NCBI GenBank assembly: GCA_963930775.1
Contig: OZ005692.1
Coordinates: forward strand, 2,466,135 to 2,530,134
Length of the DNA: 64,000 nucleotides
Direction of reading: 5' to 3'
From: Cliona cf. orientalis
Taxonomy: Eukaryota; Porifera; Demospongiae; Clionaida; Clionaidae
This document shows positions 3,426-56,999 of the stretch, piece by piece (the stretch's first letter is position 1; each line of letters starts with the position of its first letter). Below the pieces are notes generated by a model that made no database searches, was not told where the DNA came from, and was given only the letters and a program-made list of their open reading frames with translations. Made by a program: the position numbers and the translations under genes.

Positions 3426-4240
3426 CTGTGAAGAAATAGAATAATCATTATTATGAATGCTGCTGAAATCTGAACAATTAGACACTTAGCAATGGGCTAG
3501 AAGACACTTATAAACACACTGTGTTTCATATAATATTATATGTACCATAGATAGGATTTTGATTGTGAGTTTCTAGGGCTTGCAATCATTGAATTTGCAA
3601 AGTGTCTTGTATAGTACATATACATGTATAATTATGGTCAACTATAACAGATTCATACTCTGCCAAACATTAAAACCCATTCTATGGTATTATGATAATA
3701 TGTACAGTGTTCTCGCTAAAGCGCGGTTGAGCGGCGCCCCGCCGTGCTATAGAACGCATAAAGGGGTGGGGCTCTACTGTCATGATCCTGCATCAGAGGT
3801 GCATACAAGCAATAGCAATAGTACTGGAGTACATAGAGCATTTGCTAGACAGTGCTAATGTGTGTGTGCAGTACAATTCGGTACACAACCACAAATACCG
3901 TAGGCTAGCTGTACAAACCACGAGTAGTGGGTTTGTGTAAACTAGCTGCCCACTACACAAGAGCTGCTTCTTACTGCTGTGTATATAGCCAAGCTGCAGA
4001 CATAATTATACCGTAATTTGCCTTTTTTTCGATGTTAAAAAATTTTCATTTCCTCGAGAATGACGAAAATAATTTACTTGAATATTTTCTAACAACGAAA
4101 GTTTTTCACAATGAATAATTAGAACAATTGAATTTATTACGGTATATACACGTGGGTACGTGCACGCGCACCTAGTACCTGGGCCCAACTGTACTTTAAT
4201 ACATGCAGCTGTCGCGAACAGTCTCCAGCTTTCGTTGATC

Positions 4241-6042
4241 ATGTCGATTCGGCAGTACTTCAAGCCAACTAACCAACTTCCCGATCCTAAAGGGCCACTA
4301 TCAAACGGCATTTCTTCTTCAGCAATAGCATTGGCCAACCAGGAAGTGCTAGAAGCAGCTGCGATCGCAAAGAAATCGAAGAAGCGTGGTTCCTACACAA
4401 AGTGAGTACCAATGAATTATTAAATTTTTTATTAACATGCCTAAACACCCCATACTGTTCCTGATATAAAGGAAACTGGAAAGCTTGTAGCTACATATAA
4501 TCTGTAATTTCTCGGGTTGAAAAGTGTTACAGAGGCGTGGCCAAATCTATCGGCGCATGATGCTATAATTTTTTATTTCCCTTTTCGCCCCAGGTACACT
4601 TCTGAAATGAGGGCAGAGATTGGCAGATATGCTAGTATTAACGGTGTACCTGCTGCTAGTGCCACCTTTTCGAATAAATTAGGTGTGAGAGTGAGCAAAT
4701 CGACAGTCAATGTGATGAAAAAGGCTTACCTGGAGAAAAAGAGACGGACTGGTTCAGGGACGGTGACTACTCTATCTCCTAAAAAGTGTGGTCAACCTAT
4801 CCTTGGGGCACACATAGATAAGCAAGTATAGCTCTATTTGAAGAAGATTAGGGAGCATGGAGGGGTGATTACGGCATCTGTCGTGGTGGCTGCTGCCCGT
4901 GGAATTCTGATGGCACCGGATAAATCACTGCTGGCAGAATTTGGAGGTCATATCACTTTATCGAGGCATTGGGCATACCATCTTTTGAATCGCATGAACT
5001 TTGTCAGGAGAAAAGCTATGACATCCAAGAGCAAGTATAAACCAGCAGACTTCGCTGCAGTCAAGGAGCAATTCCTAAATGACGTAGTATCCATAGTGAC
5101 AATGGAAGAGATCCCTCCTGAACTTATCCTCAATTGGGACCAAACGGGCATTCATCTGGTACCAGTATCTCCATGGACAATGGAGCAAGCAGGTTCTAAA
5201 CGAGTTGAGATCAATGGAATCAGCAGCAAGCAGCAGATCACTGCTGTTTTTTGTGGTTCCCTTACTGGTGATTTTTAGCCTGTACAGCTAATTTACCAAG
5301 GAAAGACATCACGCTGCCATCCTACTTTTGATTTTCCAGACAACTGGCACATTACCCATCTCCTCGACACTGGTCAAATGAGGAGACAATGATCCAATAC
5401 ATTGACGAGATCATCCTGCCGTATGTTGAGAGACAAAGGGACACTTTTGACGATACTACTGCGGCGTTGGTCATCATGGATAACTTCAAGGGCCAGATAA
5501 CTGACTCCGTCAACAGCTTACTCGAGGATAACAACATCCAAGTTGCTTTGCTACCTGCCAGTGCCACTGACTTACTCCAGCCAATGGATATTGAACAAGC
5601 CAAAGATTTCTTGAAACGCAGATTCGAACAATGGTATTCAGATGAGGTCACCAAGCAGCTAGAAGGAGTCGAGGATATAGAGTCCGTAGAGGTGCAGCCA
5701 GTTGACATGTGTTCTGCTGCAATGAAGGTGTTGACGGCAAAGTGGCTGGTAGAAATGGGGGAGTACCTTTCAGAGAATCCACAAATTGTGGTCAATGGTT
5801 TTAGGCATGCTGGCATCTCAGCTGCTCTGGACCTGGATGACAGCTATGAATCGGATCAGGAAGAGGGAGAAGAGGTGCAAGAAGCAGATGTTCTCTCAGA
5901 CGAAGAGTGTGACGCAGACGATGAGACCGTGATCATCTCGAGTGACAGTGACTCGCATAAAGATGTATTTTCCTTCTACATGCATGCAAACCTCAGGATT
6001 TACTACAATGTCATAATTATAATTATTATTATTATTATTTAA
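4241..6042 (+). pseudogene. DDE transposase of the pogo/Tigger (CENP-B related) class, inactivated
   Basis: Exon 1 is 4241-4401 (ATG at 4241, donor AA|GTGAGT). Exon 2 starts at 4594 after TTTTCGCCCCAG, and the phase is preserved across the junction. The N terminus MSIRQYFKP has the I-x-x-Y-F core of a PCNA-binding motif but lacks its leading Gln. A helix-turn-helix-like stretch (GVRVSKSTVNVMKKAY) follows, then a DDE_1-type core with acidic residues in LILNWDQTG, ALVIMDNFKG and LLQPMDIEQAK; the spacing fits a D-D-D triad. The tail is acidic (5850-5970). Lesions: an in-frame TAG at 4829-4831, another at about 5276-5278, and a frame change near 5355-5360. The transposase would have cut and pasted the enclosing element. 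Confidence 0.85.
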
Positions 6043-6157
6043 TGTTTACAGTCTACTGTACATCTTCTCACATTCTCAATGATATAATATAATAGGTTCA
6101 ACCATGGAAATTATTAATGGTGATATAAGTACTAACATTGTACATGTACACATCTAG

Positions 6158-6553
6158 CTACAGTTTCAGACATCTTTTTAGCTTGTCCATCTCCTTAGCT
6201 TTGCCTTTAAATAACAGCTTGCACGGAATCTCTAACCCTCCTTGTGGTAAGTCAGCAGAATATCTTCTACCTCCACTCACAATACACGAAATTGTACCCC
6301 CTCTTCTTAAAAACAGCGAGCAAATTTTAGAAAATTATCTCGGCAGATGCCCAATAATGATTCCATCCTTTACAACAGCCACAGCATATCTGTCGGATAT
6401 ATTGGTTGGCTCTCTCTCACAGGCCAGTTCTTCCCCCACCGCCGCTACCCATATAGCCTGGTAAACGTGGTAGCCTCTCACATAGCAGGGCACCTCTCTC
6501 TCGCCACTGTCCATCTTCGCTACAGTGTACGCATGCCACACCCCTAGCCACAC
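6158..6553 (-). pseudogene. HIRAN-domain ORF inside the transposon, one internal stop
   Basis: Reading the minus strand from ATG at 6553 (or a second ATG at 6514) gives a HIRAN-type sequence: GYHVYQAIWVAAVGEEL, then CEREPTN, DRYAVAVVKDG and IIIGHLPR. After an in-frame TAA at 6335-6337 the same frame continues with SLFLRRGGTISC and DLPQGGLEIPC and stops at 6158. The pattern G-E-x-L-x-C-x-R-E-P-x-N-x-x-D-x-x-A-V-x-V and the closing I-G-H-L-P-R are hallmarks of HIRAN, a domain that in HLTF binds 3-prime single-stranded DNA ends. It is about 130 residues long and stand-alone. It lies inside the transposon inverted repeats, which argues for an element-encoded accessory gene rather than host sequence. 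Confidence 0.75.
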
Positions 6554-6811
6554 CCGAGCGCTATCGCACGCGAAAGTAGCTCGCGCCTGCGCACCAGTGA
6601 AATTCTTTCGTTGTTAAAAAAATTTTGTCTAAATAAAAGTTGACGAAAATTTTGTTACACAAAAATTTCTAATGTGAAATATTTGCGAATGAAAATAACG
6701 CAAATTACGGTGTACTTGATTTATAATAATAGTTAAAGGTAAGAATCTTAGTATACCCTTCCCCTTGCTCTATAAAAAAGTTCTGGCTAGAACACTGATG
6801 TATATACTTAC

Positions 6812-21856: not shown

Positions 21857-24800
21857 TTACTGAGCAGGGACTTTTTGTCCATAGCTCACGGCTGTAGGAT
21901 TCTGTACATTCTGATCTACTGTTCCAGTCACTAACGGATATCCAGCTTGATATCCAGGTTGATGACCATAGTTGTATTTGGCCCCAGTTGCTGCAGGGTC
22001 ACTGGTTACTGGCATGGCAGGAGCCTGACCAAAGGTTGTATCATAGCTTGGTGGATACACGACACCAGGTTGCCCAACTGTGGTTGGTTGTTGTACGAGC
22101 ACAAAGGTCGGTCCGGGAGGTGGAGCTAACACTACGGAAGAGGGTTGAAGTTCCCTTGCTTCGTTGATGAGTTTTGAGCGGATAATTCCAGCAGATATTG
22201 CTGATACGATGAATAATATGGAGAATATGACACCAAGACCCTATTAATTTTATAGGAAGAGTAAGGAATGCATATTAGATATAGCTATCAATTTGTCATT
22301 CCAGATCCATTACATTGTCATTGTACTTACAACTGGTAGAGCGAAGATTGCGATGACAATGCCAGCAAAACCAATGAGAACTATTAACAGGATTACTCCG
22401 ATAATTATGACACCTATTGTTGTTAAAACAGTTAGTCCAGCCATCACTGAATTCAGTATGACATCCTATGACAAAATATAAAGCATAATAATTATTATGG
22501 AAGCCACACCAGGAAGACAGATTTTTTTTACACATTACGGCACTTAGCTAAATTCGGGCTACTGAATAGCTACAAATTAGGCCCAACTCCCACAGATACA
22601 TTCAGAATCTCTAGTCTACCCTCAGTCGTATTTAATTCGACCAGTTACGAGATTTAAGACGCCACTCCCTGTTTTTCAGTGTTCTGTATCATTACCCCGC
22701 GCGCATGCGCTAGGGGTAAAGCAATCGGTTTGTACGTCTGTTGTTACCCCGCGCGCATGCGCAAGGGGTAAAGCAATCGGTTTGTATGTCTGTTGTTGTT
22801 GTAGTTACCCCGCGCGCATGCGCAAGGGGTAAAGCAATCGGTTTGTCCGTCTGTCGTTGTTGTCGTCGTCGGCACGAAAATGCGCAAGGGGTAAAGCAAT
22901 CGGTTTGTCCGTCTGTCGTTGTTGTCGTCGTCGGCACGAAAATCGCCAGATTTTGAGTTCTAGGCGTCTATGCATGCTGTAAGCATAATCAATCGATAGA
23001 TATCGATGAAAAACTGGTTTATACGGGCTTTGAATTGCTCAAAAAGGCTTACTAGTGCTACAAATCGTGCATTTTCTGTTCAACATGCCTGTGGTTTATC
23101 GACCACACCCACTCTTTTAGCATGCTGATGCGACTGCGCATGCTCAACCTCAGTATTGGAAAGGGTCGTCAGGTAATAAAACAGCTCTGCCGCAGAGTGT
23201 TGCAGTAGTACGCAACAGAGGCTACAGAGCGCGCGGGGTATGTGCTCTACAGAGCTCTAGTTGTTGTTGTCGTCGGCACGAAAATCGCCAGATCTCGAGT
23301 TCTAGGCGTCTGTGCGTGTTGTAAGCACAACCAATCGATAGATATCGGTGAAAAACTGGTTTGTACGCGCTTCTAATTGCTCAAAAAGGCTTACTAGTGC
23401 TACAAATCGTGCATTTTCTGTTCTGCATGCCTGTGGTTTGTCGACCACACCCACTCTTTTAGTATGCTGATGCAACTGCGCATGCTCAAGCTCAGTGTTG
23501 AAAAGGGTCGTCAAGTCATAAAACAGCCTAGCTTTGCCCAAGTTGCAATATTGCAGAGTATTGCAGAGCGCGCGGGGTATGTGCTCTACAGAGCTCTAGT
23601 TGTTGTTGTCGTTGTCGTCGTCGGCACGAAAATCGCCAGATCTCGAGTTCTAGGCGTCTGTGTGTGCTATAAGCACAACCAATCGATAGATATCGGTGAA
23701 AAAATGGTTTGTACGCGCTTCGAATTTCTCAAAAAGGCTTACTAGTGCTACAAATCGTGCATTTTCTGTTCAGCATGCCTGTGGTTTATCGACCACACCC
23801 ACTCTTTTAGCATAATAGTATGCGGATGCGACTGCGCATGCTCAAGCACTGTGTTGGAAAGGGTCGTCACGTCATGAAACCACTACATGTGTGCCTCATA
23901 GTGGCTATAGGGCGCGGTGGGTATGTGCTCTACAGAGCTCTAGTTACCCCGCGCGCATGCGCAAGGGGTAAAGCAATCGGTTTGTCCGTCTGTTGTCGGC
24001 ACGAAAATCGCCAGATCTCGAGTTCTAGGCGTCTGTGTGTGCTATAAGCACAACCCATCGGTAGATATCGGTGAAAAACTGGTTTGTACGCGCTTCGAAT
24101 TTCTCAAAAAGGCTTACTAGTGCTATAAATTGTGCATTTCTGTTCAGCATGCCTGTGGTTTATCGACCACACCCACTCTTTTAGCATAATAAAATGCGGA
24201 TGCAATTGCGCATGCTCAAGCACGCTGTTGGAAAGTGTCGTCACGTCATGAAAACAGCTACATATATGCCTCAGAGTGTTGCAATACTACGTACGCTATA
24301 GTGGCTACAGAGCGCGCGGGGTATGTGCTCTACAGAGCTCTAGTTGGAACTGCATATGTAGCTACTAACTATCTTGGTCATGAGTGGCCTGGATCCTATA
24401 TAATATTATGAGGCTGGCCACAGTAATTAACCTTTCACTTGATTATCTTAAAGTCATTCTCAGACTGGTTCTTGATCCTTGTATAATATGAACCCTTGAC
24501 CACATCCCCAGTGGCTGCATAGTTCTAATGGTGCATGTGGTAAAGGTCGTCAATACACACATCGATGCCGGGGCCTCAATCGCAGAGATGGAGTCTAAGA
24601 TCAACTTTCGACTTCGAGTTTCGATGCTTCAATCAAAGGAGATGAAGTCGACAGCACAGTACAGCTTCCGAACTTCAGATCGGTCGTGGCATGACGCGTG
24701 CTATAAATAGCACAAGGCTAGCTTTATTTATCCACGGGATTACGTCAGCCAAGAGAACGCGTGAAGTTCGGCTGGCATTACTTGTCGGAGAAAGTAGCAC

Positions 24801-32745: not shown

Positions 32746-35700
32746 ATGGCTGATATTGGCTCTGAATATGGAGTTCCCCAGCTCAGGTGTAAAGTTAAAC
32801 AGGAGAAAATGGAACGTGACAAACGTACTAATGATTATGAAGAAACAGATGCTGAGGCTTGTGAAGTTGCTGCAGCTTCAATAAAGGTCTCAACTGAAGG
32901 TATGGGGAATTTAATTTAGCAAACAGTAGATGCATGCAATGGTGCCATTCCCGAGTAGGGGTAGGTAAATTGTGCTAATTTTTTGCCTATAATGCTATAA
33001 CTCTCAAAATTTTAATGCTCAAAAAATCCATCAAAAAGTGCACCTATAACTACATTGCCCATTATATGCTCAAATTGAACCAGCTATCTCTATCAGTGAT
33101 TGGCACTATACTATGCATTATCTCAGCTTTATTCAAATTATTATTATGTATACGTATGAACACAAATCGTCGATATTATTATAAACAGTACAATTGGCTA
33201 TTGTAAAAATTAATGTTTCATAATCATTTTTAATTCAGGGCCCAATAACATTAATATTGTAGCTGAAGGCCTTCATATACTTCGATAAATTATGACACAA
33301 AATTTAATAATAATTGTTACAGCTGGTAAGTACTATTATGGAGTATCCATCATGAATGGGAAACAATTAGAAGCTGGGACATCCTCCCCTGGTGTATTCA
33401 TCTGCCTTATTGGTGAAAATGGCCACTCGGGAAAGATATACCTCCAAAGCTACCTGTCGCTGCTCACAAGCGTCATAATTAAAAAAGGCATGTTGAACGA
33501 TGTTATTATTGAAAGCAGTGAAGATCTTGGAGAGATATCGGTGGTGATTCTTGGCATTGAGAAGAGCTATCTTCCGTATTCTGCATGGTACGTGAATGAA
33601 GTCGGGCTCTACAACTTTCAGAGCAAGAAACATGGTGCCTTCCCATGCTACCACTGGATTAGACATGGAGACAGCGTCAGCATCATTTCTAAAACTGGTA
33701 AGTATTAATCCCATGTAGCTACCTTTATTTGAGAGAAACTTTGCCTGTGTGAGATAGTATACTTATATATACTGTAACATGGAGTCTATCCTCATTCAAG
33801 CCTCAAAGTGTTTATACTAGCTGCCAGAGTCCATGCATGTCATCAGCTATTAGTGAACATCTATTATATAATACTGTAACCAATTATTAATAAACCAACA
33901 TTAACTCTCTTTAACTATTATCTAGCATAATAATATATTATTGTATTCTCACTGTAAGTAATTAGTTACGTCACCGGGTGCACACCCGATTAGCCGTTTA
34001 TTTTTGGCTATTGTGTATCCCTTGCTATTGAAGCAAGAATTCTTATAGATAAAAAAACAGTGCTGGATGAATCTTTAATGACTCAGAGTATTGAACATAG
34101 CATAAGCAATTATGGTGTAGGACATTTCAGCTCATGTCAGAGCCTTTATTAGCTAATTAGAACCTGGTATTAACAGATAAGAAGACATACAAAATTCCAT
34201 ATTATCAGGACTGCACCCAAGTGAGACATGTACGATCCACTGAAAAAACAAATCAGATTCTTTAGAACACGAGCAGGTAGTGATGAAATTGTTTGATGAT
34301 AAAAACGGGATTGCTTCCATGTTTATAAACATGCATGACCACAACATCATGATCACCTGAGATGAAGCCTCTGTCATAAATTCGGAGATCTCCAACTGCA
34401 TGTAGACAGAGCTAGAGTCCAACATCAGAAGCAATAAAGCGGGAACGATGAACTTAGATTGTGGTAAGGCTCCCATTCATCTCTGCCACTATGCAAATGT
34501 CATTTTTCTCATTTTTATCCCAGCTGCTTTTCTTTTCACTCTCCGTTGCATGTGCAATGAGAATCTGATAGTGACAAAGGCTCACAAGCCAAAACGACCT
34601 ACACCATTAATGTTTATTATCAATGCGCACACTAAAGATTTGAATTCATCTAACACTTTAATATAACTGAGCCTACAATATTAAGGTTTATATAGAATTA
34701 AAAATAATGTCATGGAATGGTGCACTGTCCCATTTATTTTTTCCAATTTAACTTATACAGCCACCATTAAGCACAGTGGAGGAGATAAAATCCTCCTCAC
34801 TCAAAGAAAAAGCCAAGTAGAGAATAGACGAGTGCATTATGCTTGGCAGAAATTACCCGACACTGGCCTGCCATCATGTATTCATGATAAATGGGTCCAC
34901 ATCCAGGGCCTTGCCAACGAGCTTCCTGTAGATGAGAAGTTTCAGTTGAAGAAGATGTTTGATTTCACGGGAACTGCCTTAGAGGATAGTGCTGTGCTTC
35001 TTGAGAAATCAGCCTTAGAAGATATCACAGATTTGCATGACTACGAGAAGCTGGCAGCTGTTCTTGGAGAGCATGAACTGTCAGTCTACAAAGGTGGGAG
35101 GTGGATGACAGATGTCGAGTTCGGTAGACAAATTCTGAATGGAGTGAATCCCGTAGTGATTGAGAGATGTACAAACCTTCCACCCAACTTTCCAGTGACA
35201 ACTGACATGGTGAAGGGATCTCTCAATTGGGGGAAAACCCTTGATGAGGAAATGAAAGTAAATAAATATAGCTACTGCATGGATATTGGTTATACTGACA
35301 GTTCTACCAGGGCCTATAATATAACAGCCGTTGCCATAAATTAGTTAGTTAGTAAATTGATGCAGCAATCTGCATATCAGTACTAATTAGCTAAATCATA
35401 GTGGTCCAAATTAAATGGTCCAGGAGCTTTCTTCTTTCGTAGAAATGAATTCTTCTTTTTCCTGGAATATTAGTAACTGTTACATCCACACATACAATAT
35501 GTGCATATAATTATAATAAACTGACATTGAGACCCTTTCGTATTAAACTGCAGTAAAAATACTCGTTAATACATAATTATAGGATGGGCATGTCTACATC
35601 TGTGACTTGAAAATCATGGATGGTCTTCCGACTCGAGAAGGGCAGTATTGTGCTGCTCCTATTTGCCTGTTGTATGTCAACGAGTATACGCAGTTGATCC

Positions 35701-37976
35701 CCATAGCCATTCAGCTCAAGCAGAAGGCTGGTGAGGACAACCCCATCTTCCTTCCCAGTGATCACCACTTCGATTGGTTGCTTGCCAAAATCTACTATCA
35801 AAGTGCTCACTTGCAGGTAATTTAAAATAGCTGTATACCTTTAAAATTCACTTGCTATAAGCTATATTTTGTGCTCACACAGTGGAAATGCAATGTATAT
35901 AGCTATAGCTATGTTATATTATGCATAGGAAATTTAGCACTTGCAGATACTGTGTTCCTAGCAGCTCGAATTGAAAGCATGCATGCAAGTTGGTTTAGCT
36001 TGTGCAACCATCTTCTGCAGTCACGGTCCGAAAGAGCTTTAGTCTTAAACTCTTCAACACCAAAGAATGAAGCAATACGATGCAAAACTCTTAGTGCATT
36101 GCAATTAATAACAAGCCTAAATGTTGCAAGCTAAGCCATATGTACATGTATACCAGCAACTGTTATTAGCAGGGTTTGTCTAGATCTAGAGTAGCGCTAA
36201 TCATAAGTCTTAGCATGCATTGCATCCATAATTATGTAACAGTTACATGCGTATGCGTACCATAAATGTATACAAAGAAAGTAAAGCCAAGAAGCGTAGT
36301 TAGTACATTGCTAGCTTAATAATGGTGCGTGGTCACCAGAACTTCTAAATAAAACATTCCCAATGAAATCCACACAATGCATATCAGATTCATGATTGTC
36401 ACAACAATAGCTATAGAAGCCTAACTTAATGACACCATAAACCTGTTTTCAACATATAAACCAGGTAGCTGTATGTGTTGCAGTTACCTTGATAACAGTC
36501 ACACATGCATACACAGAACAACTATGTACTGTAACCATTGCTCATGCACCGAGGATTAATATTCAGTTAATATGTTGCATATTAAGCAATTTTAGTACAT
36601 TGTCGACCAGACATAGAATGCAAAGTATTTTCAGAATTGAAGTATTATAGCTATTAATCTTATCGGGACCTATTGGAGACGTACAAGTACAATAATAAAA
36701 GCTATAGCTATGACTAAACTTGAATTTTCATTTTTTAGTTTCACCAGCTGTCCACTCACTATTTTTCTTGCCATGCTGCTATGGAGGCGTACGCTGTGGC
36801 TACCATGCGTAACCTTCCTGATCCTCATCCCATCCTTAAGCTACTTCGGCCTCACTTTCGTTACACCTTGGCCATCAACACAGCAGCTAGAGCCACTCTT
36901 ATCAATGATGGTGGCATCCTAGACCAGCTTTTCGCCATTGGTGGAGAGGGAAAGGTGAAATTGTTGCAACGTGTTTCCAATCTCTATCAAGTCCAGTGGA
37001 CAAATATTGTCCAGTATGCTCAGGAGCGTGGAGTTGATGATCCTGACAAGTTACCTGGCTATTACTATCGAGATGATGGCACCAAAATTTGGAATATAAT
37101 GAGCAAGTTTGTTGAGGGAATAGTCGATGAATTCTACAACACTGATGAAGATGTCAAGAACGACTCTGAAATTCAAAGTTGGGCTAAGGATGTGTACGCA
37201 GACGCTTTTCCTGGCTTTGGAGCTAAAAAGTCAGGGAGCCATGGTTTCCCCCAAGAGATTAATACCAAAAAAGAGCTCACAGAGTATTGCACCCTCATCA
37301 TATTCACTGGCTCAGTTGAGCACGCTTCCATCAATTTCGGTCAATACGATATGTATGCATTCGTTCCAAATGCCCCTGCTACCCTTTGTCTTCCTCCACC
37401 GAGCAAAAAGGGAGATGCTGACTACAATAAGCTTCTAAGCACTCTGCCTGATAAAACAAGCACAACTCATCAAATTACAGTAGCCCACTTACTGTCTCAG
37501 TACAGCCACGATGAGGTAAGTACATACTTTGAGTGCAACAATAAAATTAATAATATATTTGGGAGAGAATTTAATTAAGTTGGCAATTTGGCAAATCAAC
37601 AGGCCGTGCACCTACCAAAATTTAATATTATGTCACAACATTCAACTGTGTGCACCTTACTTATGGCACAATCTGCATGCTGCATTGCAGTTTTATTGCC
37701 AAACCACCAAGAATTAATAAATTCCAACTTTTCCATATTACATTACTATGATGCATGTAATGCTGTGAAATTTTTATCACATAAATTTAATGCTAGATAT
37801 TTTTGGGTCAGTATCCATCAAGCATATTCTCAGAGAAGGCCGCACAGCGTCTCATCAAGCAATTTCAAGCTGATTTGGATGATATTTCTGAATACATTCA
37901 GAAAAGAAACAAGGATCTTGATGTGCCTTACACCTACATGCTTCCTGGAAAGGTTCCCAACAGTATTACTATTTAA
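32746..37976 (+). CDS. PLAT-domain lipoxygenase, intact, 738 aa, six coding exons
   Basis: Exons 32746-32899, 33323-33697, 34761-35257, 35583-35816, 36739-37515 and 37797-37976 keep one frame. After an acidic leader of about 50 residues comes a PLAT/LH2 beta-sandwich (about 53-175), which in this family guides membrane and substrate access. The helical catalytic domain has non-haem iron ligands H427 and H432 (HQLSTHYFSCHAAMEA), H615 and N619 (EHASINFGQYD) and the C-terminal Ile (PNSITI), the animal pattern. The enzyme should add O2 to polyunsaturated fatty acids to give hydroperoxides; regio- and stereospecificity cannot be read from sequence alone. Animal enzymes are usually near 670 residues; the excess is mainly the leader. 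An acceptor at 32726 suggests a spliced 5-prime UTR. Confidence 0.92.
34153..34476 (-). CDS. Possible small secreted protein antisense in lipoxygenase intron 2
   Basis: The minus-strand frame starts MGALPQSKFIVPALLLLMLD, a convincing signal peptide, and is open for 107 codons. A donor (CAG|GTGATC at 34357) and acceptor (TTTTTTCAG at 34240) would also splice it in frame to 68 residues. AATAAA on the minus strand lies just past the stop (about 34143). No family is recognised and chance is not excluded; the corresponding intron of the second lipoxygenase lacks an obvious counterpart. Confidence 0.25.
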   Translation of the reverse strand: MGALPQSKFIVPALLLLMLDSSSVYMQLEISEFMTEASSQVIMMLWSCMFINMEAIPFLSSNNFITTCSCSKESDLFFQWIVHVSLGCSPDNMEFCMSSYLLIPGSN

Positions 37977-37999
37977 ATGAATTATACCAAAACTAAACA

Positions 38000-38558
38000 G
38001 TAGTTAACTTGTGCAATCTCTTTAATAGTATACTATAATATTATTATGGCATGTGTGCACAACTATACATTGTAGTCTGATTGGAAAAAGTATAACAATA
38101 ATTAGAATTTCATTACCACTTTCCTGTAATCTGATTGGTCAATAGGAGGTAACTTAGTAGCTTAGGTTTTACTTGGGTAATTACTTAGTTACATGTACTT
38201 AATATAAATTTGGCCAATACTATATTATAGGATCCATGGTAATTTATGAGAGCTCCGGGATCCAAGGGAAATAGCTGTACTACTATAGCTGTATAACTTA
38301 GCTCACCTCAGTCAATGGGATCCACAGTAGATATTCAGCATCCCTCTGTCCCCTTATAAATTTAATACCCTCACTACACTCAGGTGTCATGGCTTGGGAC
38401 CATCAGGATGTTAAATACTGTAGATCCCTTATCCTCGGTGTCTAACTATTTTAATAAAAATTTGCACACTCTTCCCACTATACAAAGCGGATGTGTTATT
38501 ATGTGCATGTGCATATGCATACACTGATCAACTACCTGCACCCATAGCTATATACATT
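38000..38558. other. AT-rich spacer after the lipoxygenase gene
   Basis: No gene is visible. It contains AATAAA-like stretches and short GATCC-containing repeats around 38230-38420, and nothing I can name. Confidence 0.5.
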
Positions 38559-38976
38559 ACGTCCAGAGTCCCGATTCGCAAAAAAGAATTCGGCCTCGCG
38601 ATGAGGTAATTATGATGAAATTACGATGAAATGATGATGAAACCTATGATGAAACCTATGATGTAATTGCTGTGAAACTGTTTCAAAATGTTTAGCGCGC
38701 ATGAAAGGTTGTTGGGACCCAGAATTCGAACCTAGCGTAGAAGAGATCGTGGACTATCCGATGATATCCTTATGGCGTTTCTCTCAGTTCGCTTTCTCTA
38801 GCGAGCTCGCTTTCAGGGCAGGGGGATTTCCCTATTCAGTCGAGCACATGGCAGGTGAAGGTCAACCGGCTCAAGCCGCGCGCCCCAATATTGTACGCGT
38901 ATACGGAGCATGCGCAGTTTGTCGATGTGTCCTAGTTCGAATTTATGGCGGCATATTCGTGAGGGACTCTGGACGT
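38559..38976 (+). mobile_element. ACGTCCAGAGTCCC element, tandem copy 1
   Basis: Terminal inverted repeats ACGTCCAGAGTCCC and GGGACTCTGGACGT. An internal ATGATGAAA satellite, AAAGGTTGTTGGGACCCAGA, GAGCTCGC and CGCGCGCCCCAATATTGTAC blocks. Each tandem copy is separated from the next by AGTCTCTNNGTTGTTCATT, so the true unit is about 430 bp. The interior holds an open frame of 94 codons of unknown meaning. Confidence 0.8.
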
Positions 38977-38995
38977 AGTCTCTAGGTTGTTCATT

Positions 38996-39406
38996 ACGTC
39001 CAGAGTCCCAATTAGAAACAAAGAATTCGGCTCTCGCTATGATGAAATTATGATGAAATGATGATGAAACCTATGATGAAATATATGATGAAACTTATGA
39101 TGTAATTCCTGTGAAACTGTTTCAAAATGTTTAGCGCGCATGAAAGGTTGTTGGGACCCAGAATTCGAACCTAGCGTAGAAGACATCGTGGACTATCGAT
39201 GAGATATGGCGATTTTCTCGGTTCGCTTTCTTTGGCGAGCTCGCACTCGGGGGGATTTCCCTATTCAGTCGAGCACATGGCGGGTGAAGGTCAACCGGCT
39301 CAAGCCGCGCGCCCCAATATTGTACGCGTATACGGAGCATGCGCAGTTTGTCGATGTGTCCTAGTTCGAATTTATGGCGGCGTATTCATGAGGGACTCTG
39401 GACATA
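38996..39406 (+). mobile_element. ACGTCCAGAGTCCC element, tandem copy 2
   Basis: Same blocks as copy 1; one end base is changed (GGACAT for GGACGT). It is the copy closest to the one in gene A intron 2 (25000-25408): both have GATGAGATATGGCGATTTTC rather than the GATATCC variant. Confidence 0.8.
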
Positions 39407-39424
39407 GTCTCTAAGTTGTTCATT

Positions 39425-39827
39425 ACGTCCAGAGTCCCAATTAACAAATCGATTCGGCCTCGCGATGAGGTAATTATGATGAATAATGATGAAACCTATG
39501 ATGAAATTATGATGTAATTGCTGTGAAACTGTTTCAAAATGTTTAGCGCTCATGAAAGGTTGTTGGGACCCAGAATTCGAACCTAGCGTAGAAGAGATCG
39601 TGGACTATCCGATGATATCCTTTTGGCGTTTCTCTCAGTTCGCTTTCTCTAGCGAGCTCGCTTTCAGGGCAGGGGGATTTCCCTATTCAGTCGAGCACAT
39701 GGCAGGTGAAGGTCAACCGGCTCAAGCCGCGCGCCCCTATATTGTACGCGTATACGGAGCATGCGCAGTTTGTCGATGTGTCCTAGTTCGAATTTATGGC
39801 GGCGTATTCGTGAGGGACTCTGGACGT
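39425..39827 (+). mobile_element. ACGTCCAGAGTCCC element, tandem copy 3
   Basis: Nearly the same as copy 1 in its right half (TTTGGCGTTTCTCTCAGTTC, TTTCAGGGCAGGGGGATTTC), with a shorter satellite at its left end. It directly abuts the CTCCCCAGT element at 39847. Confidence 0.8.
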
Positions 39828-39846
39828 AGTCTCTGAGTTGTTCATT

Positions 39847-40479
39847 ATCTCCCCAGTAGCAATTTACTTTTCTGTGGTTATGAGGTAATTATAGTGTAAT
39901 TATGATGAAACCTATGGTGTAATCTCTTAGGTAATCTATGAGGTAACTATGAGAAAATTCAGGGCCTCGCTGGAGCCTTTCTGAGACTTGAAAATCAGTA
40001 AATATGTAGAGTATCTTACGCGTGTATCCAGCGAATAGATTACAAGCGGAGCGCTACTTTCTCTGAGAAGTACTGTTGGTTGAACTTCACGTGTTTTCTT
40101 GGCTTACGTAATGCTATGGATAAATAAAGCTAGCCTTGCGCTATATATAGCACGCATCACTGCCACGAGGGGCTGGCCCGCGCGCGACTGCAGCAACGTG
40201 ACCAACCTGAACTTCGGAAGGAATACTGTGTTGTCGAGTTCGTTTCTGTGATTGAAGCATCGAAACTTGTCGCTATCAAGGTTGAGAGTCGATCTTAGAC
40301 GCCATCTCCATGATTTAGCATAGTCTGGCGGGCCAGCCCCTTCGCAAGAGGGGGCTGGCCCGCCAGTCTTGCGAAGGGGCTGGCCCGCCAGACTAGATTC
40401 AGCATCGATCGATGTGTACGCATTCCATTGACGACCTTTTACCACATGCACCATTACACTGTGCAGCTACTGGGGAGAT
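39847..40479. mobile_element. ATCTCCCCAGTAG element containing a perfect GC-rich hairpin
   Basis: Terminal inverted repeats ATCTCCCCAGTAG and CTACTGGGGAGAT (one gap). The body is homologous in reverse to 24503-24980. At 40321-40395 it has acquired a perfect 28-bp hairpin (TAGTCTGGCGGGCCAGCCCC and so on), with a third copy of GGGGCTGGCCCGCCAG in the loop. Confidence 0.7.
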
Positions 40480-40956
40480 GGTCAAGGGTTCATATAACAG
40501 TAAATCCCTTATTTCTATGTCTACATACTGTTATAGTGTTTGTGAATCTGGAAATCCATCCAGTAGTATGCTGGTTCGATAATACTCAGATGCATATCAC
40601 TTTTACTCACTAACGTCAACACACCAGTCAACTCCATGATACTGTAACATTATTATGAACATAATTACAGATATTGTATTATACGGATACAGTGGGGATA
40701 GAAATACAATTAATACTACATGTATGCAATAACCACAAGGTAAAATAGCTGCTACAAGTTCATAATTATGCATCCAGGTAGCTACAGTAGGGCTATTCCA
40801 GCTAGCAGAACAAAAAGGTACTACATGAACCAAGGAAAGTATGCATAATTATTATTATGCTCTAGTCCAAACATAATATCGAATTGTTTTTTTTTTTAAA
40901 AGAAGGTCCTTATCGTGTATGTAATTTTATGATCCAACATCCAATCCTTTTCACTA

Positions 40957-41862
40957 TCACTGCACGTAGAGTTCCAAAAGGCTGATGGGTGTGTCCTCAC
41001 CAATAGCGGATTCTGTTCCACAAATGCGGACCTCGATATCGTCAGTTGTTGGATTAGCGAGTGTCACACTAAACCAAGGCGGAGTCCTCCCATCACTACA
41101 ACACTGACCTTCACACTGCTGGCCATCCCAGAGAGGATCACTAGTATACCTCAATACGTCAGTATTTTCGAATGTACTAGATGGATTTCCAGATTCGCAG
41201 TAGTAGTTGTCTCCAATATATGATGGTGGTGTTTGGGGTGTGAAAGAACTACTAGCTACCACACATGGACAGCTAAAGATTTCACCAGAAACAATGAGTT
41301 GCTCAGACAAACCAGCAGCATAAGTCCAGATATGCCTCCGTGGTGAAGATCCATAGGTAATACTCACTCCATCAACGTATCCAGTATTTATTGATTGTCG
41401 CTCATTTTGAAATACGTCAGTACCTCCAATCTGGTATCCAATAACCTGTCCACAAACCTTGCTATACTGGCGACTATCAGCACTAGCAAAACTCAAGCTT
41501 GAGCAGCTAAATTCTCCCACGCTACTTGGGCGTCCGCAGGCTCTGACGCCATTGGCAGAGTACAGTCTCAAAGATGAAGGACACTGCTGTGTAGGATCAT
41601 CCATATTGAGGTAGGCCACACGATGCCACTGTCCAGGTCCACAGCGAGCGCTCACAGTAATGTCATTTTCAAATTGCTGCATTGCATTCAAAGTAGCATT
41701 CTGTAGACTTTGTCGAGCTACATCTCTGTCTTCTTGCGAAGCACAAATTCCTGGTTTTATGGCAGGAATGACTTGGAGGCGCATTGAGTTTTGTCCAAAT
41801 ACGGTTACTACATGTGTCTTTGTGAAGAAAGCTATCAAGAATACTATCTTCAATACCGGCAT
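40957..41862 (-). CDS. Secreted cysteine-rich protein, intact, 301 aa, single exon
   Basis: The start MPVLKIVFLIAFFTKTHVVT is a signal peptide, probably cut after VFGQ. The mature chain has about 14 cysteines. The N-terminal half contains CGPGQWHRVAYLNMDDPTQQ and CPSSLRLYSANG. The C-terminal half carries the module HIWTYAAGL ... CPC ... YYCESG ... DPLWDGQQCEGQCC ... TPPWFSVTL ... PTTDDIEVRIC ... EDTPISLLELYVQ. This resembles a module common in uncharacterised secreted proteins of sponges and cnidarians; I know no proven function, and an extracellular or surface binding role is a guess. There is no intron. Three damaged relatives surround it, and this is the only copy with an undisturbed frame. 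Confidence 0.85.
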   Translation of the reverse strand: MPVLKIVFLIAFFTKTHVVTVFGQNSMRLQVIPAIKPGICASQEDRDVARQSLQNATLNAMQQFENDITVSARCGPGQWHRVAYLNMDDPTQQCPSSLRLYSANGVRACGRPSSVGEFSCSSLSFASADSRQYSKVCGQVIGYQIGGTDVFQNERQSINTGYVDGVSITYGSSPRRHIWTYAAGLSEQLIVSGEIFSCPCVVASSSFTPQTPPSYIGDNYYCESGNPSSTFENTDVLRYTSDPLWDGQQCEGQCCSDGRTPPWFSVTLANPTTDDIEVRICGTESAIGEDTPISLLELYVQ

Positions 41863-42720
41863 ATTGGCTACTGCTCAGCTGCTATGTATTATATTACTTG
41901 CTGATCAAAAAGTCGCGTTTATAATAATGTCGAGTCAATTGATACAATTTGAAAGCATGCATGCAATTCCATGAGTCCCAAGGCATAGCTAATACTCTAG
42001 GGGTATGTTGTCATGCAAAAAAACACTCATAAATGATGTATATTTGTATGCCTCGCTCTGATGTGTAAACATGGTGGGGTCTATAACCCCTTATAAGTAT
42101 AGTGAATAATAATTATCATAGCAGTATACAAAGACACAAACAGAGCTACCGGTAATTCCCAAATGGTGCTCTAAAAACAGCTATATAATTATACAGATGA
42201 ATTTTTTACTGGTATATACCCTGATTTTGGTCCAGCTTGTATTCAATTTTTTGGACCACCTCTATCTTCCACAAACTACAGTACCCTTCGAGTTTGCACA
42301 TGCGTCGAGCACTGGACCAAAAGTAAGATTTCCTTTATGTCGTGCTTACCAAAACATGATTGAGTTTTCCAACACATGTTTGGCAGAGGATAGGGCAGAA
42401 TTTTTGTAAAATAAATGAAACATGTAGAAAATTTTGCCCTATCCTACATATTTCCTACATGCATGAAATTTGAGTTTTTATATCTAGTGGAGGGTTAAAG
42501 TAGCTATATAGAAGTTACAGAGTACAGTTTGGATGTTAATATAATAATATGGTGCTCTAAAAACAGTAGGGTACGTAGCTTTATAGGAGCTAGGAATATT
42601 ATATAATAATATAATATTCAGAAGCTAATGTTTACTACGTACATTCTTATTACTGTAATAGTGTTCCCAAAATAGCTAGTCCAGATAAAAGCAGAATTTA
42701 ACATGCAATAATATTATTTC

Positions 42721-48509: not shown

Positions 48510-48717
48510 TACCGTATTTCTTTTAAAAATTCGGCCCTTCTAATTATTCGGCACCCTGTACAACTCTAATTTTTCGGCAAAGGTCGTCACGCGCATATGC
48601 TATAAACGGGAATGGAATGCGCACGCAGACAGAATGTTGAATATTAAACTCTAAAAATTCGGCGAAGCTAAAGCAATATTATTATTTTCATGCCGAATTT
48701 TTAAAAGAAATACGGTA
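48510..48717. mobile_element. MITE in lipoxygenase-pseudogene intron 2
   Basis: TACCGTATTTCTTTTAAAAA and its complement TTTTTAAAAGAAATACGGTA form the ends, extended by TTCGGC and GCCGAA. The interior holds GGTCGTCACGCGC. The ACCGTA start is shared with the elements at 49281 and 62255. Non-coding. Confidence 0.85.
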
Positions 48718-49280
48718 TTTATAGTGCATGTTCCATTAAATTTATTTTTTGCTCATACAGCCACTATTAAGCAGGATGAAGGAGATAAAATTCTCCTCAC
48801 TCAAAGAATAACCCAACTAGAGAAGAGACAAGTTCATTATGCTTGGCAGAAATTACCCGACACTGGCCTACCGTCATGCATTCATGACAATTGGGTCCAT
48901 ATCAAGGGCCTTGCCAATGAGCTTCCTGTGGATGAGCAGTTTGAGTTGAAGAAGATGTTTGATTTCACGGGAACTGCCTTGAAGGACAGCGTTGTGCTTC
49001 TTGAAAAATCAGCTTTAGAAGATATCACAGATTTGCATGACTACGAGAAACTGGCAGCTGTTCTTGGAGAGCATAAACTGTCAGTCTACAAAGGTGGGAG
49101 GTGGATGACAGATGTCGAGTTTGGCAGACAAATTTTGAACGGAGTGAATCCCGTAGTGATTGAGAGATGTACAAACCTTCCACCCAACTTTCCAGTGACA
49201 ACTGACATGGTGAAAGGATTTCTCAATAGGGGGAAAACCCTTGTTAAGGAAATGAAAGTAAAATATAACTGTATAGCGTA

Positions 49281-49484
49281 TATTATACCGTATAGTGGGA
49301 AATTTTCGTGGGGTTCAATTTTTGTGGAAGGCCAATCTTCAAACTTTTTGTGGTTTAATTTTCGCGGATGCGCATACTCATGTCTATTAGGTACTGTACA
49401 ATCGTGCTTATTTCATGGATAGTAGCTTATCCGCAAAAACAGCGAAAGTTGGATCCGAAAAAAAATTTCCCACTATACTGTTCT
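49281..49484. mobile_element. MITE in lipoxygenase-pseudogene intron 3
   Basis: TACCGTATAGTGGGAAATTT at the left and AAATTTCCCACTATACTGT at the right form the terminal repeats. AATTTTCGCGGATGCGC in the interior is characteristic. Non-coding. Confidence 0.75.
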
Positions 49485-49596
49485 GAATCAATGCATGTCA
49501 TACTGACGGCTCCTATAGCTACCAGGGCCTCAGTCACATGAATATTATGGTAACTAAGGACTACAGTATTATAGCTACCTGAATGTGCGATCCCCT

Positions 49597-49650
49597 CCAC
49601 CCCCCCCCCCCCACACACACACACATGCACACACACTCACACTCACACAA
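49597..49650. repeat. Poly-C and CA microsatellite
   Basis: An interrupted C run followed by ACACAC and CACACT repeats. It is a simple repeat within intron 3 of the lipoxygenase pseudogene. Confidence 0.9.
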
Positions 49651-49759
49651 AATTGGCCTTAATCTACAAATTAAGTTTAATGGTCCAGGAGCTTTGATTT
49701 TTCTTCTTTTGATTCAGCATGGAAATAGAAATTGCATGCAATGAGACTCTCCCATAATT

Positions 49760-49974
49760 GAAGGGTCGAGAACCAGAGTGGCCTAATGATTAATAGTGCA
49801 AGTGGAATTGTCCAAAAAGCTCAAAAATGGACTAAAAACCAAACACCCTACTCTACCAAATCACTCTAATTTTCAAAAATGTGAATTTTCTGTTGTTCAT
49901 GAAAACATGTTTTCAAAGATTAGGGGGGCTAACTCAACATTTGTGGGTTAGGCCACTCTGGTTCTGAGCCCTTC
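49760..49974. mobile_element. MITE with GAAGGGTCGAGAACCAGAGT ends
   Basis: The left end GAAGGGTCGAGAACCAGAGT plus GGCCTAA is mirrored by TTAGGCC plus ACTCTGGTTCTGAGCCCTTC. AATT flanks lie on both sides. Non-coding, in intron 3 of the lipoxygenase pseudogene. Confidence 0.85.
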
Positions 49975-51429
49975 AATTGTAACAGTTACTACCGTATTAT
50001 TGTTATAGGACGGGAATGTCTACATCTGTGATTTGAAAATCATGGATGGTCTTCCAACTCGAGAAGGGCAGTATTGTGCCGCTCCCATTTGCCTGTTGTA
50101 TGTCAATGAGCATGAGCAGTTGGTCCCCTAGCCATTCAGCTCAAGCAGAAGGCTGGTGAGGACAACCCCATCTTCCTTCCCAGTGATCATCACTTCGATT
50201 GGTTGCTTGCCAAAATCTACTATCAAAGTGCTCACTTGCAGGTAAAAATGTATCTTTGAAATGTATTTTGCTAGGCTAGTTATTTTGTGCTCGCACAGCA
50301 GAAATTAAATACGGTGTCACAAATATTATGCATAATTATAGGAAACTAAAAGAGGTAAAAGTTTAATAACAATAATTAGAGGAAGGTATTATGGAGCACC
50401 CCATTGGTGAATCAGTGGTGACATACTTACTCAGTCTAATTAGTGCTACAATAATGAATCAGAATCATAATTCACTGACTAATCTTCTTTTTTAGTTTCA
50501 CCAGCTGTCCACTCACTACTTTTCTTGCCATGCTGCTATGGAGGCATACGCTGTGGCTACCATGCGTAACCTTCCTGATCCTCATCCCATCCTTAAGCTA
50601 CTTCGGCCTCACTTTCGCTACACCATGGCCATCAACACAGCAGCTAGAGCCACTCTCATCAATGATGGTGGCATCCTAGATGACCTTTTTGCCATTGGCA
50701 GAGCTGGAAAGGTGGAGTTGTTGCGACGTGTTTCCAATCTCTATCGAGTCCAGTGGACGAATATTGTCCAGTATGCTCAGGAACGTGGAGTTGATGATCC
50801 AGACAAGTTACCTGGCTACTACTATCGAGACGACGGCACCAAAATTTGGAATGTGATGAGCAAGTTTGTTGAGGGAATAGTCGATGAATTCTACAACACT
50901 GACGAAGATGTCGAGAACGACTCTGAAATTCAAAGTTGGGCTAAGGATGTGTACACAGATGCTTTTCCTGGCTGCTTTGGAGCTGAAGAGTCAGATAGCC
51001 ATGGCTTTCCCAAAGAGATCAATACCAAGAGAGAGCTCACAGAGTATTGCACCCTCATCATATTCACTGGCTCGGTTCAGCACGCTTCCATCAATTTCGG
51101 TCAATACGATATGTATGCGTTCGTTCCAAATGCCCCAGCTACCCTTCGTCTTCCACCACCGAGTAAAAAGGGAGATGCTGACTACAATAGGCTCCTAAAC
51201 ACTCTGCCTGATAAAACAAGCACAGCTCGTCAAATTACAGTAGCCCACTTACTGTCTCAGTACAGCGATGATGAGGTAAGCGTAATAATATATTATACTT
51301 CCGTATGCAACATACTATAGTCTCATTCCCAGACCCCACCCTCACAGGAGGGAAAGGGTCTGGTACACATCGGGCTTGTTTCTGAATACTGACGCGCCAA
51401 TCAGATTCATGCCATGTGCCTCATAGATC

Positions 51430-51549
51430 ACATGTATGGAAGCCGAGAAGGGCAATTTCGTTCGATTCCGCAACCGGGCCCAAGGTGCGGGATGCGGATT
51501 GCGGGTTGCGGAATCGAACGAAATTGCCCTTCTCGGCTTCCATACATAT
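51430..51549. repeat. Hairpin with near-perfect 43-bp arms
   Basis: TGTATGGAAGCCGAGAAGGG continues through AATTTCGTTCGATTCCGCAACC. It is mirrored by GGTTGCGGAATCGAACGAAA and on to CTTCTCGGCTTCCATACA. The loop repeats GCGGGATGCGGATTGCGG. It lies within lipoxygenase-pseudogene intron 5. Confidence 0.85.
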
Positions 51550-51721
51550 GATATAACTTCCAATGCATCCAATATAGAGTATACCACCACCAGGTGATAA
51601 ATGGTTTAAATTAATTTATAGTACACAGCAGCTAGCGTAGATACAATGATTGTGCTATAGCCAACTATTACTGCGAGTGAGAGCAGCTGATGCATTGCCA
51701 TGCCAAACCGATACATTCATT

Positions 51722-52392
51722 GGGGCGAGCCGAAGCGAGCCCCACACAGGTGATACCAATCGAGATTTTCCGTTTATATGTGTATATGTGTATATGTGTA
51801 TATGTGTATATCTGCCGTACGTCCTTCCGTACCGTATCTATATATCTTCTATTTGAACGATGTACATTCAATATTTTCAATTAATGCGCATGCGTAATCA
51901 CACAAGTTGCACACAACGTTGACTCAACGTTCATTAACTGTGGAGTCTTCAGCTGCGAGAGAAAAAAACTCCAACGTAGAAGAGGAAGGGAGCGAGCTCA
52001 TCGAGCAGCTGAAACTGCAGCCGAAAAAGAAGAAAGGTTAAGAAAACGTAGAAAGAGAGACCAGGAAAGGAGAGCTGCAGAAACACAAGAACAGAGACAG
52101 ACAAGACTTCAGACTCGGAAAGCGCTCTAGGCAGAGCGAAAGTTTTCATCAGAAACTGAAGAACAGCGAGGGGTCAGATTGATTAGATTAAGTAATAACC
52201 AAAGGGAGAGATTGGCGAGAGTCTCAGGACAAGCATCTACTCACTATAGGAACATATGCACAATCATATGAATTCAGTAACTTTGTATAGAACAACAGAC
52301 AGCTGTGAAATATTATCTGAACATATAGCCTATTGAAAATTCCACTTTTATTATACCATAACACTTGTGTGGGGTTCGCGGAGGCTCGCCCC
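51722..52392 (+). mobile_element. Terminal-repeat element carrying an STPR-repeat coding remnant
   Basis: The ends GGGGCGAGCCGAAGCGAGCC(CCACACAGG) and the complement of TTGTGTGGGGTTCGCGGAGG(CTCGCCCC) form about 29-bp imperfect TIRs; ATT flanks both sides. Plus-strand codons at about 51974-52129 spell roughly 24-residue units (AHRAAETAAEKEERLRKRR, then RRAAETQEQRQTRLQTRK) before a TAG at 52127-52129. Such AAET-x-EQR-x-x-RL units resemble the STPR DNA-binding repeat, which is also found in some transposon proteins. A GTGTATAT satellite occupies 51777-51811. The element is too short to be autonomous. Confidence 0.7.
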
Positions 52393-52581
52393 ATTGATGT
52401 TGAAACATCTTCTCTAGTTATTTATTAACCCTCGCCGCAAAGCGTAGGCGGAGGGTTACTGCAATCGTTTGGCGATTTTTGTCTGTCCGTCCGTCGCAAC
52501 CCTCTTTTGCTAAATGGTAAGGGTCGTTATAGAGAAAGTACGCAATCCTAGGTGTACGTGGCATAAGGAAGAGTGGTCATG

Positions 52582-56013: not shown

Positions 56014-56883
56014 TCATTTATAGTGGACTCTGATCCACAAATTAATGCGGACCTCGATATCGTCAGTTGTTGGATTAGCGAGTGTCACACTAAACCAAGG
56101 CGGAGTCCTCCCGTTACTACAACACTGACCTTCACACTGCTGGCCGTCCCAGAGAGGATCACTAGTGTACCTGAGCACATCAGTATGTTGGAATGTACTA
56201 GAGGGATTTCCAGATTCGCAGTAGTAGTTGTTTCCAACAAATGATGGCGGCGTTTGGGGTGTAAAAAAACTACCAGCCACCAAACATGGACAACTAAAGA
56301 TTTCATTACTTACAAGGAGTTGCTCTGACACACCAGCAGCATAAGTCCAGATATGCGTGCGTGGACGACCATATGTAATACTCACTCCATCAACATATCC
56401 AGTATCTATTGAATTTTGCTCATTTGCAAAGACGTCAGTACTTCCAATCTGGTATCCAATAACCTGTCCACAAACCTTGCTATACTGGCGACCACTGCCA
56501 CTAGCAAAGCTCAAGTTTGAGCAGCTAAATGTTCCCACGCTACTCAGACGTCCGCAGGCTCTGGTACCATTGGCAGAGTACAATCTCAAAGATGAAGGAC
56601 ACTGCTGTACAGGATCACTCATATTCAGATAGGCTACACGATACCACTGCCCAGGTCCACAGCGAGCACTCACAGCATTATTATTTCCAAATCGCTGTTG
56701 CAATATGCTCGAAGTAGCACTCTCTAGGTTTCGTCGAGATGCAGCTCTGTCTTCTTGGGAAGGACAAGTTCCTGATTCTGTGCCAGGAATGACTTGGGGG
56801 CCCACTGAGCTCTGGGCAAATACGGTTGCTACATGCATCTTTGCGAGGAAAGCTATCAGGATTACTATCTTCACTGCCACCAT
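56014..56883 (-). pseudogene. Secreted cysteine-rich family, copy 3, late frameshift
   Basis: 289 codons open with signal peptide MVAVKIVILIAFLAKMHVAT and the family core intact through WDGQQCEGQCCSNGRTPPWF and PTTDDIEVRI. A 4-bp insertion (CACAAATTAATGCGG for CACAAATGCGG, about 56040) then replaces the last 30 or so residues, removing the final Cys and the EDTPISLLELYVQ end. The old ending is still readable in another frame to about 55974. The protein could be made with an altered C terminus, so loss of function is likely but not certain. Confidence 0.8.
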
Positions 56884-56999
56884 ATTGGCTAGCTTTTAGC
56901 TGCTATGTACGTACCACTTGCGATCAACAAGACGTGCTTATATTAATGAGCCAATGGGTGCAGCTATTATGTTCCACCAAGAGTAGCTATTACTAAAGT

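Follow-up and report, generated by a model that had tools for sequence, protein, structure and literature searches.

Does a pogo-type transposon carry, next to its transposase, a HIRAN gene of its own, and what could such a second gene do for the element? The question is raised by an element at positions 4011-6710 of a 64,000-nucleotide stretch of the Cliona cf. orientalis genome (the whole stretch is called the window here; C4:2466135-2530134 in the 216.8 Mb, 149-contig genome that was searched). Tc1/mariner/pogo DNA transposons are usually taken to require one protein alone, and HIRAN is the domain by which HLTF locates DNA ends at forks. An earlier note on this DNA had described a transposase relic and, convergent to it, a stand-alone HIRAN open reading frame (ORF) between a single pair of inverted repeats. 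This arrangement was confirmed in the window and recurs in relatives of the element. That a second gene is kept across diverged transposase families means that something beyond cut and paste is encoded.

The gene pair between terminal repeats

Terminal repeats were surveyed in 30 loci besides the window (in batches of 15, 5, 5 and 5, the final five being picked for the absence of a nearby HIRAN match); L013, which is a fragment, the miniature inverted-repeat transposable element (MITE) loci L024 and L025, and L032 and L033 stand outside this count. Both ends were found in 18 of the 30 loci, and in 14 of the 30 a transposase and a HIRAN gene lie together between TA-flanked ends. TA borders the copy on both sides in L009, L014, L017, L021, L022, L026, L027, L028, L030 and L034-L038. 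The genes are convergent between ends of the form TA-CCGTA... in L009, L014, L017, L021, L022, L026, L034, L035, L036 and L037; the ends read TA-CCGTA[CT]TCGCTC in L030 and L038, and TA-CAGTRGAACC, which we take to be the Tigger pattern, in L027 and L028. L022, L026, L027 and L035 have transposase and HIRAN frames that are both open, and the same holds for L014 so far as exon 2 is concerned. Stops or frameshifts are present despite both ends in L021, L030, L034 and others, and the HIRAN gene of L009 is split. For 12 of the 30 (L010, L011, L012, L015, L016, L018, L019, L020, L023, L029, L031 and L040) both ends were not established.

Two pairs of near-identical copies were compared. L026 and L034 lie on different contigs and share 99.84% identity along 3,117 columns, the alignment stopping at the terminal repeats and TA; L021 and L022 are 97.2% identical over 2,993 columns, and this alignment also stops at the terminal repeats. 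Because the near-identity runs to the terminal repeats, the two genes travel as one unit, and in the case of L026 and L034 have done so recently. These results support the earlier proposal that HIRAN is a gene carried by the element. The opposite explanation, that the ORF is a host gene in or near which an element landed, could draw on nothing except the single window copy; the same gene stands within the ends of 14 loci, and near-identical copies lie on different contigs, so that we reject it and leave it practically no probability.

Seven further match rows (at least 82% identity, more than 300 bases) represent five copies of the window element. The sister copy L009 (C19) is 95% identical; both of its transposase exons are open and TA stands on either side of it, and an insert interrupts its HIRAN. 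L010 (C1:34507934-34509696) has parts of both genes, and L011 (C1:14900563), 91% identical, has an open HIRAN and has lost its 5' part. The copy at C2:2685706 is a fragment (query bases 1-449) and that at C1:19411933 an inner fragment only; both stop short of HIRAN. As the 95% and 90% copies keep both genes in order, and diverged families do so too, the gene pair is no accident.

The window element itself is 2,700 bp long, its ends reading CCGTAATTTGC... from 4011 and the complement up to 6710. Its terminal inverted repeats occupy 4011-4050 (plus) and 6671-6710 (minus); the inverted arms are 47 nt long and 72% complementary, with 7 nt of these being flank, and a subterminal inverted pair measures 38 nt (76% complementary). 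The TA duplication expected by the earlier note holds on both sides in L009 and the other 13 loci, but in the window itself only on the left (4009-4010), the right side (6711-6712) being TG, a single base off TA. Transposase exon 1 (4241-4401, plus), with the N terminus MSIRQYFKP, is open in L009 too. It is followed by a GT-AG intron at 4402-4593 (plus; GTGAGT...CCCCAG), the splice joining SYTK to YTSEMRAEIGRYAS; the intron is assigned because the spliced SYTK-YTSEMRAEIGRYAS string stands uninterrupted in relatives. Exon 2 (4594-6042, plus), which holds DDE_1, is dead: it contains two in-frame TAG stops, one at 4829-4831 and one at 5276-5278, and shifts frame ahead of 5389; in L009 it is open, inside a 485-codon stop-to-stop frame. 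The last open transposase piece of the window copy matches Pfam DDE_1 at E 1.2e-7, and the three earlier pieces gave no match in the Pfam search. The HIRAN gene, convergent to the transposase, has 118 codons (6161-6514, minus), with a TAA at codon 60 (6335-6337), and is open in L011. With PF08797 the half that precedes the stop reaches 22.6 bits, below the cut-off of 24.7; read through the stop in the genome profile search, the protein reaches 29.0 bits, above it. No C48/Ulp1 domain was found in the element with the PF02902 profile. In the window copy, transposase and HIRAN gene alike are dead, and from its TA target and DDE_1 transposase the element appears to be a dead copy of a cut-and-paste pogo-type DNA transposon. 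At its right end (6636-6711), 24 of 46 genome match rows cover only the right-hand end (37-78 bp, 79-100% identity); this points to a family of short, non-autonomous relatives with a common end.

Association across the genome and relatives with other gene content

A search of the genome with the window HIRAN protein gave 150 matches scored of 473 candidates, and the Pfam HIRAN model gave 97, of which 20 were new, making 170 HIRAN places; these were compared with Pfam lists of DDE_1 (at least 150 rows), DDE_3 (at least 150) and DDE_Tnp_4 (143). DDE_1 lies within 5 kb of at least 46 of the 170 places, in 32 cases convergent, in 10 divergent and in 4 on the same strand. Within 3 kb, and among the 150 HIRAN matches listed, at least 45 are near DDE_1, 3 near DDE_3 and 1 near DDE_Tnp_4. 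When places were drawn at random on these contigs, with the last match on each contig taken as its approximate end, the mean was 0.8 and the maximum 5 in 2000 rounds, against the 45 observed. The 45 are a lower bound, because the DDE_1 of the window copy is absent from the 150 DDE_1 rows and that of its C19 sister is present. Among the 20 places found by Pfam only, none is near a listed DDE_1 and one is near DDE_Tnp_4. The DDE_3 and DDE_Tnp_4 controls gave no support to the idea that HIRAN adjoins transposases in general.

When L022-type transposases are added, at least 63 of the 150 HIRAN matches listed adjoin a transposase of either kind, and 30 more lie inside listed MITE copies. These MITEs are about 600 bp long, have TACCGTATAGCGGG ends and a truncated HIRAN ORF and no transposase (L024:2086-2687 on C5; L025:1958-2559 on C6), and at least 40 copies, scored of 1513 candidates, are 86-100% identical. 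Ends of the TACCGTATAGCGGG type also occur inside the Tigger-type L027, on a stretch downstream of the HIRAN gene (L027:3623-4252) that looks like an inserted MITE. Two other HIRAN neighbourhoods were seen. In L032 (C17; features at 1235-1687 minus and 3471-4487 minus) about 1.8 kb separates a Harbinger-type DDE_Tnp_4 transposase from an ORF whose HIRAN is HLTF-like (E 1.7e-9); convincing terminal repeats were sought in L032 and none were found. The top Pfam HIRAN match of the genome (L033:1930-2205 plus, on C4; 50 bits) adjoins a long opposite-strand ORF that presumably resembles a retroelement chromodomain. No relative was found in viral contigs, searched with the transposase alignment and one HIRAN, or in prokaryote genomes, searched with the same HIRAN.

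Starting from the transposase, the search with that of L022 yielded 93 matches, with 89 of 330 candidates scored; they correspond to 62 loci, a few of them of the L030/L038 type. Among the matches listed, HIRAN lies within 3.5 kb in 39 of the 62 (33 convergent, 5 divergent, 1 same strand) and is present in 25 of the 35 loci where the transposase spans 1,100 bases or more. Seven of the remaining ten were read: L016 ends just before HIRAN, L020 is an incomplete locus, L040 has just a remnant of a C48-like tail, and L039, L041, L042 and L043 have a transposase only. The expectation that HIRAN always lies inside the terminal repeats thus failed.

HIRAN is joined to an Ulp1/C48-like region in eight loci. 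PF02902 scores are above the cut-off of 20.7 in L026 (23.8), L034 (22.9), L036 (32.7) and L037 (26.6) and below it in L023 (16.5) and L035 (14.4), and the Pfam profile search gave no C48 row for L021 and L022. This fusion, and the spread of HIRAN over several pogo-type lineages, go beyond the earlier note. In a FastTree tree of 19 transposases rooted on L030/L038, L039, L042 and L043 group together in a clade with support 0.998, and L041 falls outside it; the HIRAN-only families, including that of the window element and the incomplete L016, form another (0.995); and the HIRAN-C48 families fall in two places, L026/L035/L040 (0.999) and a group of L022/L023/L036/L037 that is not resolved. In the simplest story, which with deep supports of 0.69-0.93 serves as a working order only, the ancestor would have had HIRAN-C48, the window clade would have lost C48, and the L039/L042/L043 clade would have lost both.

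The HIRAN protein and the transposase motifs

HIRAN scores with PF08797 are above the cut-off in L014 (32.7 bits), L036 (32.5) and L031 (28.5) and below it in L022 (23.8), L027 (14.4), L028 (15.8), L029 (16.9), L037 (20.3) and L038 (21.7). The predicted structure of the element HIRAN matches the HLTF HIRAN fold, the model being made from one sequence read through the stop, with a best predicted local distance difference test score of 72.5 and 29-39 for the other four; sequence comparison alone matches HLTF at just E 0.13-0.23.

Nonsynonymous and synonymous differences per site (pN, pS) among the seven HIRAN domains of the window lineage are 0.21-0.39 and 0.70-0.95. Comparison of the window family with L014 gives a pN/pS of 0.27 in HIRAN and of 0.32 in the transposase, values which, pS being saturated, are no proper dN/dS. 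These values indicate that at the protein level HIRAN is conserved between families about as strongly as the transposase. HIRAN and transposase distances are correlated (Mantel r 0.83, p 0.0002, 12 families), a value owed partly to the split between large lineages; within the seven families of the window lineage r is 0.58 (exact p 0.030). For the window family the transposase was taken from L009 and HIRAN from L011, L016 was paired with the HIRAN of its family mate L017, and L015, L018, L020, L021 and the loci obtained later did not enter the test. Transposase core identity is 50-69% within the window lineage and 20-31% between lineages, where the HIRAN distance is 0.46-0.63 and the transposase distance 0.69-0.80. 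The correlations indicate that HIRAN diverges in step with the transposase.

The earlier note had credited the protein with the HLTF grip on 3' ends. PMC11366124 reports that R71E abolishes 3'-OH end binding by HLTF, and PMC11237066 that N90A-N91A disrupts HIRAN function. Nearly all rows of the element proteins keep Asn at the Asn91 place (MITE L024 does not) and the Asp94 place is invariant, but the Arg71 place is never basic: it is E, D, A, N, S or G in all 14 rows that reach it, in a register set by sequence only, with Lys, Gln or Met one position earlier. The HLTF-type 3'-end pocket thus appears partly kept.

As to the transposases, Asp 273, 389 and 425 (L026 numbering) are invariant in 11 of 11 alignment rows of DDE_1 transposases; the catalytic spacing, counted by hand, is D,D35D for the window lineage, against D,D32D for L027. 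CENP-B_N and HTH_Tnp_Tc5 are above cut-off in L027 and L028; in L030, BrkDBD and HTH_Tnp_Tc5 are above and CENP-B_N below. No CENP-B_N/HTH N terminus was found at E 0.1 in L014, L016, L019, L022 and L023 of the window lineage, and L035 has HTH_Tnp_Tc5 at E 0.093.

The link to PCNA that had been drawn from pogo found some support outside the window lineage. Four of the five transposases tested there beside HIRAN (L038 was outside the test) end in a canonical PCNA-interacting protein (PIP) box, Q-x-x-[ILM]-x-x-[FY]-[FY], with a chance of 0.00024 per shuffled protein: QSTLKEYF in L027, QSKITSYF in L028, QSKLSAYF in L029 and QTTIDQYF in L031. In the window lineage the resemblance of MSIRQYFKP to the core of such a motif stands for its hydrophobic and aromatic residues: an M[SA][LI]xx[YF]F-like core is present in 10 of 13 readable N termini by the strict pattern (chance 0.0065) and in 13 of 13 by the relaxed one. 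The same core occurs in HIRAN-less families, in strict form in L039, L042 and L043 and in relaxed form in L041, and so it belongs to the transposase lineage and not to the gene pair.

Possible roles of HIRAN and known systems

We tentatively prefer, at somewhat less than an even chance, the reading that these are pogo-type transposons with an accessory, motor-less HIRAN protein that would act at DNA ends during transposition. Excision would expose free 3' ends, and in S phase a fork could meet the gap or an inserted copy. The motor-less HIRAN might then occupy the free ends, and the ends bound by transposase would thereby be shielded from resection and from host remodellers of the HLTF/Rad5 type. 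The outcome would be that completed jumps are favoured, or that the donor copy is restored by sister-templated repair. PCNA at the fork may also be the address to which both the PCNA-type transposase motifs and the desumoylase-like region point, and the steering to replication forks that the earlier note had in mind is plausible. A more ambitious version, which we regard as rather doubtful, is that of a portable fork kit, in which: a PCNA-binding motif on the transposase would be combined with a stand-alone HIRAN, which would handle 3' ends or protect them from remodellers of the HLTF/Rad5 type, and, in some families, with a SUMO-protease-like domain that could act on SUMO-PCNA; these parts would be gained, split, lost and swapped between lineages; and excision and insertion would be coupled to a passing fork, with the donor site being refilled.

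Several observations weigh against the preferred reading. Among the 150 HIRAN matches listed, 105 have no listed DDE_1 within 3 kb, 87 when L022-type transposases are added, and 57 are tied to no listed transposase or MITE. HIRAN is an accessory gene that transposition does not need, since four relatives (L039, L041, L042 and L043; 1.8-2.1 kb) have both ends and none of it. With Arg71 not kept, 3'-end gripping may have been lost or altered. The L030 HIRAN is near those of L028 and L029 (distances 0.43 and 0.46) at transposase distances of 0.76 and 0.75, and the L030 transposase has no C-terminal PIP box. The window-lineage core lacks the Gln, only the L022 frame having one just before the Met. 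The quality of the fold model, the saturation of pS and the share of the large lineages in the Mantel value count here too.

Other roles were weighed as well. HIRAN could be a DNA-binding partner for the element itself, one that binds the terminal repeats or imports or represses the transposase, forks being irrelevant. Harbinger elements, with their small Myb-like second protein, are a precedent for such a role; the loss of the Arg71 equivalent leaves room for another DNA target, and divergence together with the transposase is expected of a partner protein. We nevertheless consider it somewhat unlikely, as similar CCGTA ends are present in the HIRAN-less L039, L042 and L043, and as HIRAN is more alike between lineages than the transposases are, which speaks for a common target, not for one specific to each element. 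HIRAN or HIRAN-C48 could instead be aimed at the host, as a decoy or a desumoylase that blunts silencing or damage signalling and leaves transposition chemistry untouched. The C48/Ulp1-like fusion, above the Pfam cut-off in four loci, and the dispensability of the HIRAN gene would fit this, as would the OTU or Ulp1 domains that PMC2836005 describes in other transposons; against it, the window subclade keeps HIRAN without the protease and no target is known, and we think it unlikely. That HIRAN is a passenger without function for the element would agree with the HIRAN-less families, with the MITEs that have a truncated HIRAN and with the 57 unattached matches. Conservation near the level of the transposase, and the presence of HIRAN beside several pogo-type transposases in three orientations, make this very unlikely.

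The gene pair is of wider interest. The PCNA link of pogo transposase is on record, without a stated purpose in the part of PMC5371812 available to us, and the gene pair renders this old question testable. Natural stand-alone HIRAN proteins are, in addition, possible tools against HLTF.

Elsewhere in the window, 34685-41874 and 48655-56895 carry two sets of presumably lipoxygenase-like ORFs and two copies of a secreted-protein-like ORF, an arrangement that resembles a tandem duplication of some 14 kb. Tandem arrays occupy 22692-24313 (units of 52-62 bp and about 342-375 bp) and 38612-39847 (unit 429 bp).

The pogo-type transposon is a known kind of element; the HIRAN accessory gene is new as far as the HIRAN searches reach. 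Among the papers that these listed, none could be recognised, by its title or the start of its abstract, as linking HIRAN with a eukaryotic transposon, most of the subscription literature and the Repbase reports lying outside this search, and a term search of the main text of two pogo surveys (PMC7386202, PMC7325037) did not return the word HIRAN. With the pogo superfamily (pogo and Tigger, within IS630-Tc1-mariner) the elements have in common the TA target, terminal inverted repeats and a DDE_1 transposase with a DDD triad and, in L027 and L028, CENP-B_N, HTH_Tnp_Tc5 and the C-terminal PIP box. They differ from it in having a second gene, HIRAN or HIRAN-C48, and the window lineage differs further in that no CENP-B_N is recognised and the PIP-like core is N-terminal and without Gln. 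Unlike the HIRAN of HLTF/Rad5, that of the elements is stand-alone, with no SNF2 motor or RING finger, has a non-basic residue at the Arg71 place and is sometimes fused to C48. The HIRAN-like lp_0118 (PDB 3k2y) is stand-alone too, but bacterial. Ginger1 and Mutator transposons (PMC2836005) encode a C48/Ulp1-type domain as the HIRAN-C48 elements do; in Ginger1 the Ulp1 domain lies within the transposase, whereas in the present pogo-type elements it is encoded as a HIRAN fusion by a second gene, convergent to that of the transposase.

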